64,000 nucleotides of DNA from Hyperoplus lanceolatus. Lineage: Eukaryota > Chordata > Actinopteri > Uranoscopiformes > Ammodytidae. The first letter of the stretch is position 1, and each line of letters opens with the position of its first letter. The stretch covers positions 24,130,001 to 24,194,000 of the forward strand of contig CM049405.1 in NCBI GenBank assembly GCA_026929865.2, read 5' to 3'. The notes under the pieces were generated by a model. The model was given only the letters and a program-made list of their open reading frames with translations, was not told the origin of the DNA and ran no database searches. Positions 5,580 to 63,462 of the stretch are shown here, piece after piece. The translations under genes were made by a program, and so were the position numbers.

Positions 5580-6465
5580 CACTCAACAAAAATATAAACG
5601 CAACACTTTTGTTTTTGCTCCCATTTTTCATGAGATGGACTTAAAGATCTAAAATTCATTCCAGATACACAATATTACCATTTCTCTCAAACATTGTTCA
5701 CAAATCTGTCTAAATGTGTGATAGTGAGCACTTCTGCTTTGCTGAGATAATCCATCCCACCTCACAGGTGTGCCACATCAAGATGCTGATCTGACATCAT
5801 GATTAGTGCATAGGTGTACCTTAGACTGTCCACAATAAAAGGCCACCCTGAAATGTGCAGTTTTGTCTCACAGCAAAATGCCACAGATGCCACAAGCATT
5901 GAGGGAGCGTGCAATTGGCATGCTGACAGCAGGAATGTCATCCAGATCTGTTGCTCGTGCATTGAATGCTCATTTCTCCACCATAAGCCATCTCCAAAGG
6001 CGTTTCAGAGAATATGGCAGTACATCCAACCGGCCTCACAACCGCAGACCACGTGTAACCACACCAGCCCAGGACCTCCACATCCAGCAGGTTCACCTCC
6101 AAGATCGTCTGAGACCAGCCACTGAGACAGCTGCTGAAACAATTGGTTTGCATAATCAAACAATTTCTGCACAAACTGTCAGAAACCGTCTCAGGGAAGC
6201 TCAACTGCATGCTCGTCGTCCTCATCGGGGTCTTGACCTGACTCCAGCTCGTCGCCGTAACAGACTTGAGTGGGCAAATGCTCACATTCGATGGCGTCTG
6301 GCACGTTGGAGAGGTGTTCTCTTCACGGATGAATCTCGGTTTACATTGTTCAGGGCAGATGGCAGACAGTGTGTGTGGCATCGTGGGGGTGAGCGCTTTG
6401 CTGATGTCAATGTTGTGGATCGAGTGGCCCATGGTGGTGGTGGGGTTATGGTATGGGCAGGCATC
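5580..6465 (+). mobile_element. Tc1-like transposon, 3'-truncated
   Basis: The element starts after a TA dinucleotide (5578-5579), the Tc1/mariner target, with the terminal repeat CACTCAACAAAAATATAAAC. The first 300 bp match a Tc1 family widespread in fish that has terminal repeats of about 200 bp. The transposase frame follows. Similarity stops near 6465, so the second half of the transposase and the right terminal repeat are missing. The copy cannot move on its own. Confidence 0.9.
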
Positions 6466-6495
6466 CATAGTGTTCAGTGTGTGAACGCACCTTAA
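5878..6495 (+). pseudogene. Tc1-like transposase, N-terminal part
   Basis: The frame starts at the ATG of MPQMPQALRERAIG; an upstream in-frame ATG at 5863 is less likely, because the family starts at MPQM. Residues 1-120 form the paired helix-turn-helix DNA-binding region, including the RSVARALN and TVRNRLREA helices and a GRPR-like NRRPR linker. The first catalytic aspartate lies in FTDESRFTLF. The frame leaves the family after MVWAGI near 6465 and stops at 6495 in unrelated sequence. The second aspartate and the glutamate of the DDE triad are therefore absent. About 196 residues of a usual 340 or so remain, with no internal stop, which suggests loss of the 3' half rather than slow decay. 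Confidence 0.9.
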
Positions 6496-23186: not shown

Positions 23187-23310
23187 GGGGTTAGGGATGG
23201 GAATCGAGAACCGGTTCTTGTTCAGAACCGGTGCCGAGTCAACCAATTCCTTGGAATCGTTAACATGCCTGCTTAACGATGCCGCTTATCGCTTATCGGT
23301 GCTCTTTTTG
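23187..23310. mobile_element. hAT-like transposon end fragment
   Basis: The sequence begins TTAGGGATGGGAATCGAGAA and contains two copies of AACCGGT, then GGAATCGTTAACATGCCT. This is a terminus typical of a fish DNA transposon family. The sequence changes abruptly near 23305 into the Gag-like frame on the opposite strand. No matching right end was seen in the window. Confidence 0.5.
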
Positions 23311-24364
23311 GGCTCTAGCTGTAGACCTATGATGATGCTCTGATCCCAACAGCCCCGGCAGAACTGTCTGAGTAAGTGTTCGTTTGAATTTTCAACTGAG
23401 GCTCCCCCTCTAGAAATCGTTTTTGTGAGGAGGGTGTGGAGTCGGTTAAGAAATGCGGAGGGTTTCTCCCCATTGTTCTGGTTTGAGCTGAGAAAGGCTG
23501 CAAAGAGCTCCTCTCCATCCTCCACAACACCGAAGGCAGATTCAAGCTGAGTGACATAAGCACTGGGAGGTGAGGAGATTCCAAGGGGTTTCACCACATC
23601 AGTAGCTGGATTCAGCAGGCTTTCAAGAATTTTCCTTACCTTGTGTGTATCACTAAAGGAAGGATCCTCAAGAAGAAGGTCAACCTGGGTGTGCCAGGTG
23701 TCATAGTCAACCTCACCATTAGGCTTTGGCATGCGACCAGAGAAGATGCGCAGACGGACAGGCATGTGTGATGAAGTTCTTGAGTCATTTCGGATGACAT
23801 GCTCCACAATCACTTTTTGGATCTGAGGGGGGTTAATGACACTCTCATCACTGTGAACTGGGCTCACTGGCACACTAGCAGATACCTTAGGAACATATAT
23901 GGGTTCTGCAGGTTCACCTTGGTTATCATTGTCAGATGTGTTATCATTTTGAGTTGTATCTTGGTTCTCTTGTAGCTCGCTTGTGAGTACACTTAAGAAG
24001 CCTGTTTTGCTACTACCTGCGACTAGCTTTAGTTCACTCAGGTATCTGAGGGCTATCTCCCTGCCCATCTCTTCTTGACAGACATCTCTAATGGTTCTCA
24101 CAGACCATTTTAGGGAAGGATATTTGGGGCTTGGTAAGGTGCCTAAAGTAATGGGGTCTATTCTAGAGATGGACCGGTCAGACAAATACTCTATCAGGGC
24201 TCTACCCTTTGGATGTTCTAGCTCATCAGGGGTCCGGACAATTTTTGACAATTTCCCATTTACTTCAAAACATGAGCTATCTCTTCATCTGAGTAATCTC
24301 CCTCAATGCCTGTTACCAAGAGGGAGCTCTGACCCTGAAAGTCAAACTGGTTACAAATATCCAT
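23286..24364 (-). pseudogene. PNMA/Ty3-type Gag-like gene, broken
   Basis: The minus-strand frame (24251 to 23286) encodes about 320 residues. The N-terminal part (LEHPKGRALIEYLSD, KWSVRTIRDVCQEEMGRE) precedes an acidic linker. From about residue 165, LRIFSGRMPKPNGEVDYDTW through EDPSFSDTHKVRKILESL and ELFAAFLSSNQNNGEKPSAF is the Gag capsid fold shared by PNMA proteins and Ty3/Gypsy retrotransposons. The open frame has no ATG at its 5' end. A likely true start, at 24364, opens a 34-codon frame that stops at 24260-24262, so a one-base shift near 24266-24270 separates it from the main frame. The C-terminal end is lost at the junction with transposon DNA near 23305, and no CCHC knuckle is seen. 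Two defects make it a pseudogene. Confidence 0.8.
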
Positions 24365-44967: not shown

Positions 44968-45598
44968 CATATCACAGAATATGCATGAAAAATAAGAAAT
45001 TATCACAGTTAAAGTGAATTAAAAAACTGGCACTATACACTTGTGTGAACAATAGTTAATCATATTTATTATGCGTTAAATACACAAAAACTCATCTAAT
45101 CTTCCCCATCAGGACTGTGTTAAGGTGGTTTGATTGGCAATGGCATCTCCCAGTAGTATTGGCATTAAGCCCCACAACTGTCATCACATAAAAACTATTG
45201 CCATATTCTGACGTATGTGACATCACATTTTCCAACTGACCCTGCCCATTTCAAAGCAGCGAGAAAAACCACAGAGAACACAGCATTGACAGAAATCTGT
45301 AAATGAACCAAAACACTTTTTCACGTTGGCAGGAAAATATATTGTTTACGTAGAGACCCACATTGCTCAGAGTAAGAAGATGATTGAGGAAATGTGCTTT
45401 CAGGGCCTTCCCGGGGATTTCTCCATAAAACAGACCCATGATCTATCACTGGGTGGAGGCCTATAGATTTCTAATAAAAGACACTGGTGGAGGGTGTATG
45501 TCATCGCGTATGACTGTGAGCATTGTGCTACTGTTTTGGGTGAGTTGACCTCTAGGTAACCATGAGTCATCACTTCCCTTGTTTAGGGGGAGAACTGT
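44968..45598. other. unannotated DNA
   Basis: Spacer between the 44 kb element and the Harbinger transposon; nothing is recognised. Confidence 0.5.
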
Positions 45599-45624
45599 GG
45601 CACATTCTCAATTCGCGTTCTTCT

Positions 45625-45930
45625 CATGGCTTGTGTCCTTGTGTCCTTGTGAAACGTCACCAGCAGGGTGGGGTTGGAGCCCAAGTACTGTTCACATACA
45701 AAATTCACATCAAGCCAAGGACAGTCCGAAAACCCGGAAATGTCCTTGCCCCGCCCATTTTACCGAGGACGCATCATATCAATTAACGTTATTTTCTGGA
45801 CTTGTGTCCTTGTGAAACGTCATGAGGTGAAGCCAAGTACTGTTCACATGCAAAGTTCACACAAGCCAAGTCCAGTCCGAAAACCCGGAAATGTCCTCGC
45901 CCCGCCTGTTTTACCAAGGATGCATCGGAT
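45625..45930. repeat. tandem subterminal repeats of Harbinger left end
   Basis: Two direct copies of about 130 bp lie about 170 bp apart (45625-45775 and 45796-45930). Each holds CTTGTGTCCTTGTGAAACGT, CAAGTACTGTTCACAT, CAGTCCGAAAACCCGGAAAT and CCCCGCC...TTTTACC. Their CTTGTGTCCTTG core is inverted at the right end of the element, so they are likely transposase or Myb-protein binding sites. Confidence 0.75.
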
Positions 45931-47240
45931 GGTAACTTGTGGTGACTTGTGAGCGTGAATTTCCCAGAATGCACTTGGCGGTGACGTGCGCCGCGCGGAC
46001 AGCGCAGCTTAAAAAAAAAAAAGTTTCATGTTAAAGGTCAGTCCCTCCGTTCACACTTTTTTTCCCTTGCGGTGCTTAAATTTCTCCGTTTGGATTATCG
46101 CTGTTAGTTTAGAATTGTGGCCGGATACCTTTGCATTGATCGAGTTTGTGTGTCGATAATAAACTGAGTAATTTACTTTCGTTTGTTAGATGCTAAATGA
46201 TCTTTGCTTTGTGAGCAGTTGAATCGCCATTAGGCTACTTAGTTAAGTTAAATAACGGCGGTGTGTGTTTTTCCTTTCGTAAGAGATTAACGGCCTATTT
46301 CCTGCATTTTGTCTGTATAGATTGACTGATCTGAATTATTGGTTTGGTATTATTTTATTACACCATAATAATGGATATTCATTTCCCTTTTTGTTGTAGA
46401 CCGCATTCTTGACATCTGTCGGCTAAGCTACTGTCCGAGCCAAGTAAACAAACCTAAACTGCGTTCTGACTCCAGAGGTGTTCTTACCAACCATAGATAG
46501 TAAAAGGAAACTACACCTACCAACACACCAGGGTGACACCACCGCTATAGTAGGCCTACCTATATCCTTCCACCACACTAGTTTCTACAGTCTCTAAACA
46601 ATTGTTCCATTTTCCGGTACAATAGGCGGCGGTATGCACCAAGAAAACTATAGTTGCAACCCGCTAATACACGAAAAGAAGAAGACAGTTGGTGGTTGCA
46701 CCGGCTGCATTTAATAATAATCAGTCAGGAAAAATGTAAAAGATGAGGAACCCGCCGATAACCCAAAAAGTAGAAGTAGAAGAAGAAGAAGAAGAAGAAG
46801 ACGACGACGACGGAAAAACTACACAACTGTAAGTTATATGTCGAAATATTACTAATGTTTTACAGAAGTGACGCCTTTAAACTCACGTTATTGACTAATA
46901 TTAACCTGCTTGAAATTTGCTCGGACAGCTAGTAAGTCCGTTAGCCGGACATGACTCAGACGACATCCAGTAGCCTATTAAGAACATTTTCCTCCAACTG
47001 ATAACGTTTCAACGTTGTAATTCGCTTTATTTGTTCCCTGGCTTATCAGTTTGTCTTAGGGAAAAGTTGTATTTTTAAAACAAGTCACAACCTTATATTT
47101 TCCTTTTTATTTTTTTGAATTGACTTCAACGTTGTGCTCTTCTGGATCGACTAATTTGCTTGTCTTATTAGCTATTGTGCAAAAAAGTGTTATAGGCTAC
47201 TAAGTAATACCCATTAAATTACCTGCAATATTTTATCAAG

Positions 47241-48193
47241 GGACAACAGAGGAGACAAGGGCCTTGATTGAGTGGCGGTCGGCGAATGAGCCCCTCTTCA
47301 CCGGCCGCCGCAACACCTCGAAGACCGGGTGGGAGTAAGTACTGCTTTTGTGAGATTATATTATGCACGTCAGTATTTGAACGGCTGAAGTCAGATACAT
47401 GTCGTAACCATCTTTTATGGTAAATGTGTTAATTGAAGTTACAGTGTTGTATGCCTACTGTATATATGCATATTTTTTTTTTTTTTTTTTGCTTTGTTAA
47501 GGGACTTCATTACCACTTCTTCCATGGCCATTACAGCGAAACAGGCCAGGAAGAAGTGGAACAATTTGAAGGACAAGTATAAAGTAAGTTTCCTCTTTGT
47601 CTGCTTTGTATTATTCACTGATTGATAGATTTCCTGGGGAAATTAACATATGGACAACAATAGATTTTGTAGTGGCTTTTGAAATAGGCTTTGCCTACTT
47701 TAGAACTGTGGTTGCATTAAAATGTGTGCTGTAATTAAAACTCTGTTCACAGGAGCTTAATAACCCTCCCACCGGGAAAGGGGTAGAGGCCGGCAGTGCC
47801 ACTGCAGCCACCTGGCAGTGGTACGGTACTATGGACGCTGCACTCCAGGGGCAGCATGCGATCAATCCGCCCCTAGTTGTGGCAGCCAATACGAGTGCCA
47901 CTGCCGGTGGGGTGCTGATCACGCCGGCCTCTACCCCTTCCACTTCCACAGCAGGAAGCCAGTGCAGTGGAAGCCAGGCATTGGCCTGTGCCCCTTCCAC
48001 TGCATCCCGCAGCCAGGCCAAGAAGAGGCCCAGGGAGAGACTAGTGGATATGTTGTTGGAGGAAGGGGAGCGAGAGGCGGAGAGAGAGAGAGAGAGAGAG
48101 GCAAGAGTGAGGGAGGAGGAGCGGGAAAGGGCAGCTGCAGCCCGAGAGGAGCGGTTTTTAAATCTTTTTGAGTGTTTAGTTAAAAAATTGTAA
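47241..48193 (+). CDS. Harbinger Myb/SANT-like DNA-binding protein, 5' exon unresolved
   Basis: Three exons are supported: 47241-47334, 47502-47583 and 47753-48193, each bounded by AG acceptors and GTAAGT donors and joined in frame. They encode 204 residues. Residues 1-58 form the Myb/SANT-like domain: TTEETRALIEWRSANEPLFT, GRRNTSKTGWEDF and KQARKKWNNLKDKYK give the three-helix pattern. A TWQWYGTMDAAL motif follows, then a Ser/Thr/Ala-rich linker, a basic patch (SQAKKRPRERL) and a charged coiled coil ending FLNLFECLVKKL. An AATAAA overlaps the end (48194-48199). The protein would help bring the transposase to the nucleus and terminal repeats. The start is missing: an acidic exon from ATG 46743 to the donor at 46829 joins in the wrong phase. 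Confidence 0.8.
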
Positions 48194-48955
48194 AATAAAT
48201 ACATTATTTTCGTTTCACATCATCCAACTCATTCTTCATAGCAAGTGTCTTGTTTATAGGTCATTCTTCAACTACGGTGATATGCGTCCTTGTAATACAG
48301 CAGGAAAACAAAAGCATAGCATTTCTTATTTTAAATCTGTCACACTTGACAGTAAAAGGACTTTAGGAAAAATAATGGTTAATCAGTGTATTTTTATTAT
48401 AAAGTTGGGTTTTATACATAGTTTTGGCTATTTCACCCTTGTCCCTAGGTAAAGTTTTGGACATTGGCTAGTGATTTCCATCACTTTTTAATGTGGTCTG
48501 TATAAATTCCATCAGCCACTATCAGGAAATTCTTCTAAATAAACCCATTAGTACATCTCTCTAAATTTTTATTTAAAAAATAATTAACACCAATTTTGCC
48601 TGTACATGAAGTATGACCCTTATATTTACAACAGAAGTATTTTACAATATGTAGGCTACAGTTAACATTCATGGTAATTATATGTAGAACAAGAAACATC
48701 AAAATATTACACACTTGTGTCAAATGAGGGTTAACAGTGAAAGCAATAGGAAAAAGGCTTTTTCAATGTATTGCATTGTACAATTTTTTTAATATTTGTT
48801 CAGTAAAATTCCATATAGAACAAGGAATAACATCCATCTTCTGTATACGAATATCTTGGTGTAGAAAGCCTTAAAATTATGAAAGCAATAGTATTTGTTT
48901 GAAGAGTGCAGTAAAAACAAACAGCAGAACTAAAAGTAATTTGCACTAAAATTAT
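48194..48955. other. 3' UTR spacer between convergent Harbinger genes
   Basis: AT-rich spacer. The Myb-like gene has AATAAA at 48194-48199. The transposase has AATAAA on the minus strand at 48568-48573, giving a 3' UTR of about 380 nt. Confidence 0.65.
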
Positions 48956-50617
48956 CTAAATGTAATCATGTTCTCCCAAACATGCAGGGAGTTCTTCAGG
49001 TGCAGAAATGCGAGCAGCAAGCCTGGCTCGGATGGCGTTCCCTGAGTGGGCCCTGTCCAATTCACCGCATTCTTGCTCCTGTTCTTCCTCCTCCTCTTCC
49101 TCCTCCAAGACGTCACCTGCTGTCATGCAAATGTTGTGCAAAATGCAGCATGCAGCAACAACCTTTGGGGTGAAGATGGGCCTGACCTCCACAGCCCTCA
49201 AAAATATGGTCCGCCAACGAGTTTTCAGCATCCCGAATGCCCTCTCAATGATAATGCGCCCTCTGGTGTGATGCCTGTTGAACCTGGCTTCAACTCTGCC
49301 TAGTAATCAAAAGTCACATGGAAAAATAAAGGTGTTTGTCAGTGTAACCAAAATATATATTTTTGTATGTTTTCATGAAACAGAGAGGGATCTTACCTGC
49401 TACAGGCTGGCGGTACGGGGTGATGAGGGCCACAGGATGCTGAAGGCACGGGTATCCCCCATCCCCCAGCAGGAAGTACCCGGCTGGCGGATACAGGGCC
49501 TGGCTGTATATTGGTGAGCGTCGCAGCACCAGGGCATCGTGCACAGACCCCGGATTTCCAACATAAATGTCTAAAAACGACCCTTTGGAATCAGAGATGG
49601 CTTGGAGGATTATTGATGGAAAAAGCTTCCGGTTGCAGTAACCAATCCTCTGTTCCGCAGGTGGCACCATGCGGATGTGGCATCCGTCGATGGCCCCGGC
49701 AGCACTCCGGAAGGCCTCATGGCCGGAAAGATGAGCAAAGCCTGCTCCCACCTCCTCCATCTCCTCAGGCTTCGGGAAGTGGATGACCCGGTGAATAATA
49801 GCCATGAGCTTGTCCACCACCTTGTGGACCGTCCTGCAGACTGTGGAGAGGGGCATGGAGAAGATGTCTGCCGTCACCCTGTAGGAGGCTCCACAGGCGA
49901 GCCAGTAGATGGTCACAAGGACCTCCACCTCGTGGCTCCATCCATGGGACTTCTCCCTGGGCAGCATATCCACCAGCCGGTCCATGCTATCCCAGGAGAG
50001 TCTGAAGGCTGGCCTCAAGTCGCCTCCGGAAAAATACACTGCCAGGATTGGCACAGTGATATTGTACTGCATGTAAGGACCACGGTCCTGTGTAAAGACT
50101 AAAATACAACTATACTTTAAAACATTTCATTGTTTTTTTTTTTAAAAGTATTTCTTATTTACCATGTCTGTTGACTGTTTAATCCATTTAAAATATAATG
50201 GTAAATTTATGATTGTCTGATATGAATTGTGGAAGTTGCCGGATTTAATATTCCTATAACATTTTAACTGGGGTTGTAGGCCTACTTGTAAGGATTATGT
50301 TTCATTGCTTACTAAATAATTTATTAACTCATTTGTAGCTCACAAAACAATTATTCCTGGGTTTTTCACAGCAATTACATTAAAAAATGTATCTATCAAT
50401 TGAAAGGCAAAAAAAACGTTACATGTACCTTGCTTAAGAGACAAGCGATGATGGCTTGTCTTCTCCGCATCCTCCACTTCCTCCTCCTGGCTCTCCTCTC
50501 GCGGATCTGCATCCTCAGTCGGGCCCTCTCCTGCTGAGCCAGCCTGAACATCGTCCCGGCCAGAGCAGCAGCGGCAATCAGGATCCGACGACGAGGATGA
50601 ACTAAAACGGCATCCAT
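48956..50617 (-). CDS. HARBI1-like DDE transposase, three exons, intact
   Basis: Exons on the minus strand are 50617-50429, 50087-49397 and 49299-48956, joined at GT-AG sites in phases 0 and 1. They give 407 residues with no stop. Residues 1-63 are an Arg-rich exon (RERRARRRKWRMRRRQ), likely a nuclear signal or DNA contact. Exon 2 carries the helix-turn-helix region (VTADIFSMPLSTVCRTVHKV) and the catalytic core: AGAIDGCHIRM with the first aspartate at about 197, NPGSVHDALVLRRSPIY, and LGDGGYPCLQHP with another conserved aspartate at about 272. Exon 3 has GRIIIERAFGMLKTRW with the glutamate at about 312, then an acidic run and an HDYI terminus. All motifs of the family are present. It is convergent with the Myb-like gene. 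Domesticated HARBI1 is shorter and lacks an adjacent Myb gene, so a transposon copy is favoured. Confidence 0.9.
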
Positions 50618-50853
50618 GCCAAACTTCTAACTAACGGAAATAACTAAATGGATATCTAACTAACTAACCAACTAACTAACTATATCTATCTAAACAACTA
50701 TCCTATATCGTAAGTAATCTAATATAAATCTATTTACTAATCTATTCTGCTAGAGCCTATCTAATGTGTAATTATTCTTTCTAGTATATCTTTTCTCTCT
50801 CTCTGTATCTCTTACCAACCTTAACAACCCACAATGTTTGTTTTACCACTTGC

Positions 50854-50861
50854 CTTTTATA
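50854..50861 (-). promoter_or_regulatory. TATA box of the transposase gene
   Basis: The minus strand reads TATAAAAG, about 240 bp upstream of the transposase ATG at 50617. This would place transcription start near 50825. Confidence 0.55.
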
Positions 50862-51122
50862 GTAGGTGATCAATGTAAATGAGATGCAGGTGTGTACAGT
50901 TGTGTGTGCCGTGTAAAGTTTGGTAGCCTATGGCCTACTTTATCTAATGAATAAAATTATTTCATTTTAATAAGCCTATATAATTACAGTTCGGAAATAA
51001 AAACATTTCTATTTAAAATTGGAAAGGGAAAGAGGCAAGTTATTTTATTTATCTATTTTTATTGCAAATAAACATTACAGCATAAAAAATACAGGTTGAT
51101 TGAAAACAGACGCGCTGGGCTG

Positions 51123-51130
51123 TGACGTCA
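51123..51130. promoter_or_regulatory. CRE-type site TGACGTCA
   Basis: A perfect palindromic cyclic-AMP response element lies about 265 bp upstream of the transposase TATA box. A half-site-like TGACGTGC lies near the left end (about 45981), and two AACGTCA motifs occur in the left subterminal repeats. Binding by CREB/ATF proteins is inferred from the motif. Confidence 0.4.
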
Positions 51131-51314
51131 TCAAGTCAGCTTCTGTCCCAACTGCAAAATAGCGTCCCGTCCTTGGAAGTCTGTTCTTCCAAGTCGAACT
51201 CCGGAGTCCGGACTTGCAAGGACACAAGTCTGTACTTTGGTGTACTTGGTTTTGAGAAACGGCCTATGTTTCTATGTTTACTCTTTAGATTATTTTGCCA
51301 AAAACACTTGGCGT

Positions 51315-51757
51315 GTTGTGATAGCTCAAGGTTGGACCCAAAAGCAGAATAGATACCAGGTAGTCAGTTTAGAACAATGTTTATTTAGGCAGGCAGGCAG
51401 GACACTGGACGGCTGAATGGTGTGGCGAGCAGAGACAAGTGGAAATCCGGAAACCCGCAGGCAGGCGAGCAGGAAAGGCGAACACCGGAGGCACCACTCT
51501 GGTACGTAGTAGACTCTGGCGCTGAATGACTGGAGTCCACAGGTTTAAATAGGGAGCCCTGATTAGCCCAACGATCCACACCTGGAAACAGCCTGCCCTG
51601 ATTAGCCCAACGATCCACACCTGGAACAGCCTGCCCTGTAGTGCCACCACGCCCACATGCCAACAGGGAGGTAGATACGTAGAACACAAAGAGGAGAGAC
51701 AGACAAGGGAAAACACACACAGGAGAAGGAGAGACTGCCAAGCTGTGAGTCATGACA
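51315..51757 (-). mobile_element. solo LTR of a retrotransposon
   Basis: On the minus strand the 443-bp unit begins TGTCATGACTCACAGCTT and ends GAGCTATCACAAC. The 6-bp duplication TGGCGT flanks it at 51309-51314 and 51758-51763. It has LTR order: a TATTTAAA box (minus, near 51547), then a stretch containing AATAAA (near 51380), then the U5-like end. A tandem pair of about 40 bp (CCCTGATTAGCCCAACGATC core) lies at 51558-51640. No internal region or second LTR is present, so it is a solo LTR left by recombination. Ty3/Gypsy origin is likely but not shown. Confidence 0.75.
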
Positions 51758-52250: not shown

Positions 52251-52438
52251 GGGGGCGCCCTTAGCTCAGTTGGTAGGGCGTCCCCCCGGGCTGGGCCCAG
52301 CAGCAGACCCGGGTTTCGATTCCCACCCGCGGTCGTTCTCTGCATGTCACTCCCCTCTCTGCCCCATTTCAACTCTGTCTCTTATGCAATAAAGCATATA
52401 AATGCCCCAAAAAATATCTTAAAAAAAGAAAGAAAAAA
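52251..52438 (+). mobile_element. tRNA-derived SINE, full length with 15-bp duplication
   Basis: The head GGGGGCGCCCTTAGCTCAGT includes a polymerase III A box (TAGCTCAGTTGG, 52262-52273), with a B-box-like GGTTTCGATTCC at 52312-52323. A tRNA-unrelated body follows, ending in CAATAAAGC and an A-rich tail. A perfect 15-bp duplication, AAAGTTGGGGTTTAT, flanks it at 52236-52250 and 52439-52453, so the insertion is probably recent. A truncated relative lies at 1061-1194. Confidence 0.95.
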
Positions 52439-61963: not shown

Positions 61964-62665
61964 CTTTGTTCTTAAAAAAACATGCCGGAAACGCATTGCA
62001 AGGAGGCAAAAATATATTTGTGGACATATCAGAAAAGCATATTTTCATATCCACTGACTGAGGGGGCGTGTTGGTGTCTGTTTGATTGACAGCAGCTGGT
62101 TGTGTTGAGTTGGGTGCTTGTGTTACACCATAGGGGACGAGGCTGAAAGCAAACAAAATGAGTAAAAAAAACAAGGTATGTCTACCTGTTGCTTTATGTG
62201 CTCCAACTGGGCAGCTAATTAGCAATCCAGTCTGCAGACCGATGTTAGCAGTGGAATTCTCCTAAGTTAATGTTTGTTTTGTTGCTAGTTCAATCAGATA
62301 AGGGGCAGAAAAATATGTGTGCTACTGTTTGTAAGTTCGATAAGAAGGAAAACCATGTGTGGCTGTTGTTTAAAGTGTGTCAATGTTAGCGTTACACTGC
62401 ATGTGATTTATGGAGTTATATAAATGTTAACATCAAGTATTGATTTTGCGCACAAGAGTGGACGTCATGCGTCACTGGCTGTACTTTAACTGCAATTCAT
62501 ACTATTATTAGGACTTTGTTCCCGAAAACCCTACCCATCTCCTGAAACGTTTTCACAAAAATATCAATTAATTCATAATTTATGCAAAAGAAACTTATTT
62601 TTTTCAGTTGAAAATATTATTGAACACTCCCAGTGTATCTCTTCTTATAGAACTGCATTGACTTA
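61964..62665. other. non-coding DNA with one possible mini-exon
   Basis: A short ATG frame (MSKKNK) at about 62158-62175 runs into the donor-like AAG|GTATGT. No downstream exon is identified. Nothing else is recognised. Confidence 0.3.
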
Positions 62666-62776
62666 ACACAATGATGGGCAGTTTACCTAACACCCTGGAA
62701 GTATCCACAGGCAGCTTCAGCTGTGATTTATCAGGAAACAGGTGGGACCCCTATTTGTTGAAAGCACGACAATACA

Positions 62777-63462
62777 CCTCTAAATCGGAGGCCATGGTGC
62801 TCAGCAGGAAACCGATGGATTGTCTACTACAGGTAGGGAATGAGTCCTTACCCCAAGTGAAGGAGTTCAAGTACCTCGGGGTCTTGTTTGCGAGTGAGGG
62901 AACAATGGAGCGTGAGATTGGCCGTAGAATCGGAGCAGCAGGGGCGGTTTTGCACTCGCTTTACCGCACTGTTGTGACGAAAAGAGAGCTGAGTCGTAAG
63001 GCAAAGCTTTCGATCTACCGGGCGATCTTTGTTCCTACCCTCACCTATGGTCATGAAGGCTGGGTAATGACAGAAAGAACGAGGTCGCGGGTACAAGCGG
63101 CCGAAATGGGCTTTCTCAGGAGGGTGGCTGGCGTCTCCCTTAGAGATAGGGTGAGAAGCTCAGTCATTCGTGAGGAACTCGGGGCAGAGCCGCTACTCCT
63201 TTACGTTGAAAGGAGCCAGTTGAGGTGGTTCGGGCATCTGGTAAGGATGCCCCCAGGGCGCCTCCCTAGGGAGGTGTTCCAGGAGCGTCCAGCTGGGAGG
63301 AGGCCTCGGGGAAGACCCAGGACTAGGTGGAGAGATTATATTTCCACGCTGGCCTGGGAACGCCTCGGGATCCCCCAGTCAGAGCTGGTTGAAGTGGCCC
63401 GGGAAAGAGAAGTTTGGGGTTCCCTGCTCAAGCTGCTGCCCCCGCGACCCGATTTCGGATAA
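62777..63462 (+). pseudogene. Rex3 reverse transcriptase, C-terminal part
   Basis: About 228 residues are open, from TSKSEAMVLSRKPMDC to the stop at 63460-63462; codons upstream to 62671 belong to flanking DNA. Visible motifs are VKEFKYLGVLFASEG, FVPTLTYGHEGWVMTERTRS, AAEMGFLRRVAGVSLRDRVR, RSQLRWFGHLVRMPPGRLPR, RGRPRTRWRDYISTLAWERL and the LLPPRPDFG end. This is the region downstream of the reverse-transcriptase palm. The endonuclease, the palm and the catalytic FADD box are absent because of 5' truncation, so it is inactive despite the open frame. Confidence 0.92.

Follow-up and report, generated by a model that had tools for sequence, protein, structure and literature searches.

A probable two-gene PIF/Harbinger transposon copy with an open predicted transposase frame and an apparently broken Myb-like start

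Fish Harbinger diversity is a subject already described, and according to PMC9179366 the work of a PIF/Harbinger element is divided between a Myb-like protein, which serves nuclear import and binding of the ends, and a DDE transposase, which serves excision and insertion. The same article gives fish Harbingers terminal inverted repeats of 25-50 bp and, generally though not invariably, 3-bp duplications (PMC9179366). For Harbinger-Snek in Laticauda colubrina, PMC8437027 counts 2263 copies with only the transposase intact, 452 with only the DNA-binding protein intact and 269 that are fully intact.

The DNA analysed here is a 64-kb window, a stretch of 64,000 nucleotides from Hyperoplus lanceolatus. 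Its segment 45599-51264 is probably a PIF/Harbinger DNA transposon copy of the animal two-gene type, fairly young, with a translatable transposase, and either non-autonomous or Myb-dependent. That the genes belong to PIF/Harbinger is read from their two-gene layout together with the DDE profile and the Myb-like domain. HARBI1 and NAIF1 are host genes derived from Harbinger proteins, of the same two kinds as in this element; unlike those host genes, both genes here lie side by side between end-like motifs, in transposon fashion. The element resembles the teleost two-gene Harbingers of PMC9179366 in pairing a DDE transposase with a Myb/SANT-like gene, in matching the DDE profile in full and in the length of its Myb match, about 90 residues here against ca. 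85-100 aligned there; it differs, on a likeness drawn by description, in that repeats of 25-50 bp and a 3-bp duplication are not clear. With Harbinger-Snek of sea kraits (PMC8437027) it shares the superfamily and the two-protein coding plan, and single-protein copies are common there. Unlike the solo-ORF variants of Harbinger-Snek, again by description, the second gene here is mostly present and seems to be without a readable start only. Since single-protein copies outnumber full ones in the counts given for Laticauda colubrina, an intact transposase beside a doubtful partner would be an ordinary state, and the element as it stands is a single, rather well preserved representative of a widespread transposon superfamily.

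The transposase gene lies on the minus strand and comprises the following features.

50855-50861, minus strand: TATA-like box, about 245 nt 5' of the transposase ATG
50617-50429, minus strand: predicted exon 1 of 63 codons, opening with the ATG at 50617, weak donor AAG/GTACAT
50087-49397, minus strand: predicted exon 2, with D197 and D272 of the inferred triad, donor CAG/GTAAGA, PF13359 profile positions 1-96
49299-48956, minus strand: predicted exon 3, with E312 and the stop codon, acceptor ACTAG, PF13359 profile positions 105-158
48568-48573, minus strand: AATAAA, 382 nt 3' of the transposase stop, with ATTAAA 162 and 463 nt beyond the same stop

Joined at GT-AG sites by the predicted splicing, the three exons give a transposase frame of 407 codons that is stop-free to its terminal stop, the same frame as in the original prediction. 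The spliced product matches PF13359 (DDE_Tnp_4) over profile positions 1-158 of 158, with an E-value of 7.8e-28 and 97.5 bits (cut-off 24.8), and the exon 2 and exon 3 frames read separately reach 49 and 43.2 bits. Because the joined product matches the full profile and the exon frames match it in part, there is good support for the second splice. Support for the first is weaker, given a low donor score (1.38, against 7.01 for the second, on a hand-built splice matrix) and an exon 1 with no Pfam match at E 1. D197, D272 and E312, placed by position from the family motifs, we take to be the DDE triad. It should be mentioned that the last acceptor, ACTAG/GC, was picked with the open frame in view; it leaves the frame open, and an alternative acceptor for the last exon, which runs into a stop after 294 codons, was rejected. 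At the same G+C, random sequence would leave 407 codons open with a probability of about 2e-7, a figure that ignores the free choice of splice sites.

The start codon of the transposase is supported by the TATA-like box and by the ATG-free leader: the 215 nt of leader hold no ATG, against a mean of 6.2 in single-base shuffles, and only 1 of 2000 shuffles was likewise free of ATG. A TATA box and poly(A) signals had been claimed earlier, and both are present, the former as the TATA-like box at 50861-50855 and the latter as an AATAAA 3' of both genes. That a frame of 1224 nt is intact limits the neutral divergence since insertion, or since the last selection, to approximately 1.6-3.4%, on the assumptions of neutrality, of 3.2% of substitutions leading to a stop, and of 5-15% indels per substitution with 80% of them disabling. 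This bound would fit a fairly young copy and is silent on present activity.

CpG retention was considered as a sign of youth and set aside as uninformative, the observed/expected ratio of the transposase exons (0.51) being close to that of the remainder of the window (0.43). The ratio is 0.64 for the element, 0.51 for the Myb-like exons and 0.89 for each end. The five 1200-bp stretches richest in CpG begin at 45601 (0.88), 46001 (0.98), 46401 (0.86), 14801 (0.94) and 15201 (0.95), and those from 45601, 46001 and 46401 cover the left end and the first Myb-like exons. The highest in the window, from 46001, may mark a promoter.

The partner gene lies on the plus strand, convergent with the transposase gene, and is modelled as follows.

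46400-46828, plus strand: putative upstream Myb-like exon of the inferred gene model, 5' limit set by eye and unscored
47241-47334, plus strand: Myb-like exon; its acceptor at 47241 together with a T-ending donor gives the first Trp of the domain
47502-47583, plus strand: Myb-like exon of the gene model
47753-48193, plus strand: last Myb-like exon, with the stop; AATAAA directly after it, at 48194

The three clear exons match PF13837 (Myb_DNA-bind_4) with 32 bits (cut-off 27), which bears out the earlier claim of a convergent Myb/SANT-like partner. The first part of the Myb domain calls for an upstream exon with a final T and phase 1. Donor 46829 (ACT/GTAAGT) joined to acceptor 47241 in phase 1 brings back the Trp and lifts the match by about 10 bits to 41.8, from profile position 2 onward. 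A phase-0 join at the same donor was rejected: at 32.0 bits it hardly differs from the 31.9 obtained when the upstream exon is left out, and phase 1 gives 41.8. Two points count against this exon model. Acceptor 47241 has a poor score of -2.16, a little under that of its neighbour 47250 (-1.71), which lacks the Trp; the phase-0 acceptors for the Myb-like start score -9.43 and -13.2. The whole model also depends on a splice matrix built by hand. An exact inverted repeat of 17 nt (47778-47794 and 47923-47939) lies in the last coding exon of this gene.

The domain frame is otherwise open up to the stop, and the difficulty lies at its start. In the frame of the 46829/47241 join, the putative exon 46400-46828 holds no ATG. 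Just one ATG of that exon has a frame open to the donor; it lies at 46743, a single base off the phase of the Myb domain. Single-exon starts were scanned for by taking each ATG from 46001 on that lies at most 400 nt from a GT in phase 1. This gave 11 donors, of which three are T-ending (46152, 46393 and 46396), and none of the three ranks with the 15 top-scoring donors in 45600-47235. As read, the start of the Myb-like protein appears to be broken, barring a further small exon or a one-base assembly error. The phase mismatch falls within 46743-46828, and since this stretch carries a GAA/GAC repeat as well as a short run of A, either a phase change or an assembly error is plausible there.

The ends of the element carry paired motifs and a duplication.

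45599-45611, plus strand: left terminal motif GGCACATTCTCAA, identical at 10 of 13 positions to the reverse-complemented right end
51252-51264, minus strand: right terminal motif GGCCGTTTCTCAA, which pairs with the left end at 10 of 13 positions
45628-45641, plus strand: left inner end motif GGCTTGTGTCCTTG, identical at 13 of 14 positions to the reverse complement of the right inner motif
51217-51230, minus strand: right inner end motif GACTTGTGTCCTTG, which in addition matches 45799-45812 (inner left repeat) exactly in inverted orientation
45608-45926, plus strand: direct duplication in the left end, 45638-45775 against 45801-45926, 82.6% identical (BLAST)

The end coordinates 45599 and 51264 were taken from the original prediction and are not independently fixed. 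The outermost match is not rare alone, as 101 of 619,369 pairs of 13-mers drawn from the 800-bp stretch surrounding each end are as good or better. The end pair is supported, however, by the second, 13/14-identical motif besides the outermost one; the two inner motifs sit 29 and 34 bases inside their respective ends, and the sequences between outer and inner motifs are unlike. Of the local inverted alignments between the ends, the exact 14-mer (45799-45812 with 51217-51230) comes out best, and its score of 28 was beaten in 2 of 200 shuffles (29 and 30; mean 18.9). A laxer alignment of narrower end regions, scoring 27 where shuffles averaged 24.8 and reached 46, turned up no long inverted repeat between the ends. 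The triplets on the two flanks are unequal, TGT before 45599 and TAT after 51264, and share two of three bases. At the best end pair that does have equal flanking triplets only 8 of 14 bases match; target-site duplications can decay. Proper terminal inverted repeats with a 3-bp duplication are not confirmed: the repeats look short and imperfect, and the flanks are TGT and TAT.

These observations bear on several readings. A fully autonomous two-gene Harbinger, recently or currently active, would have its Myb start in a missed small exon and would belong to a family whose repeats are naturally short and imperfect. The intact 407-codon frame, the TATA-like box, the leader without ATG, the poly(A) signals and a Myb domain otherwise open to its stop are all in keeping with it, as are the paired end motifs (10/13 and 13/14), which lie about equally deep in either end. 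We nevertheless regard it as unlikely, since the well-scoring donors offer no in-phase Myb start and equal flanking triplets occur at no well-matched end pair. Together with the imperfect inverted repeats, the same two observations leave the suggestion that the element may still be active unproven, and a vertebrate Harbinger copy that is autonomous and mobile at present, its Myb start in an unrecognised small exon, seems distinctly unlikely. Were it so, the copy would be a natural active element usable without reconstruction, and if movement were shown, a naturally active vertebrate Harbinger would be at hand for studying the division of work between the two proteins.

An assembly error in the low-complexity stretch, with both genes really intact, would explain the Myb phase mismatch, which does lie in 46743-46828 with its GAA/GAC repeat and short A run; neither the imperfect ends nor the unequal flanking triplets depend on the Myb phase, and we give this reading a slender chance. 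Domestication of the transposase alone as a host gene, a HARBI1-like fate in which selection keeps the transposase frame and the remainder decays, would suit an intact transposase beside a Myb start that looks broken and imperfect ends, but it is most improbable, for the Myb gene and the end motifs still adjoin the transposase and the Myb frame runs uninterrupted to its stop, as a young transposon would have it.

We return to a fairly young two-gene Harbinger copy with a translatable transposase and a defective partner start as the probable reading. From the roles known in the superfamily, the DDE transposase would cut the element out and insert it elsewhere, and the Myb-like protein would act in nuclear import and bind the ends of the element. 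The Myb-like start would have been lost when a change of one base in the first coding exon shifted its phase, and the copy would be immobile alone, or mobile only with Myb-like protein from another copy. The transposase of this copy may still be made, and its autonomy is doubtful. Of the earlier description as a complete two-gene Harbinger with intact transposase, the Harbinger assignment and the transposase frame stand, whereas completeness is not borne out, the Myb start looking out of phase and the repeats imperfect. An intact transposase does not make an autonomous element where the start of the partner gene is doubtful.

A search of the 64-kb window with 45400-51450 found no second copy of the element, the matches being the query itself, the left-end duplication and nine of 21-43 bp. 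The stop-to-stop frames of exons 2 and 3, intron residues included, had no relatives in viral or prokaryotic contigs, and the exon 2 frame had no match in the plasmid collection. Stretches fitting the peptide patterns numbered 3 and 600 in viral contigs and 21 and 583 in prokaryotic genome contigs, none of which was confirmed by tblastn. This outcome is expected, because the collections hold viruses and prokaryotes. A solved-structure match to a 64-residue ribonucleoprotein subunit (E 0.0084) was taken as chance.

ARAGORN and Rfam, the latter at the gathering threshold, returned nothing over the window. Outside the element, 52255-52420 on the plus strand has by eye the look of a tRNA-derived SINE with a tRNA-like head, and ARAGORN calls no tRNA in the window. 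Farther along the same strand, 62662-63462 holds 266 open codons that by eye resemble the C-terminal portion of a LINE reverse transcriptase, with no Pfam match at E 0.01. At 5839-6495, also on the plus strand, 218 open codons match the helix-turn-helix of Tc1/mariner-type transposases (PF01498, E 7.7e-12), and the 8 Pfam matches of this frame at E 0.01 include no DDE-domain family. On the minus strand, 23286-24284 holds 332 open codons with a match to PNMA (PF14893, E 1e-19), a Gag-like family.
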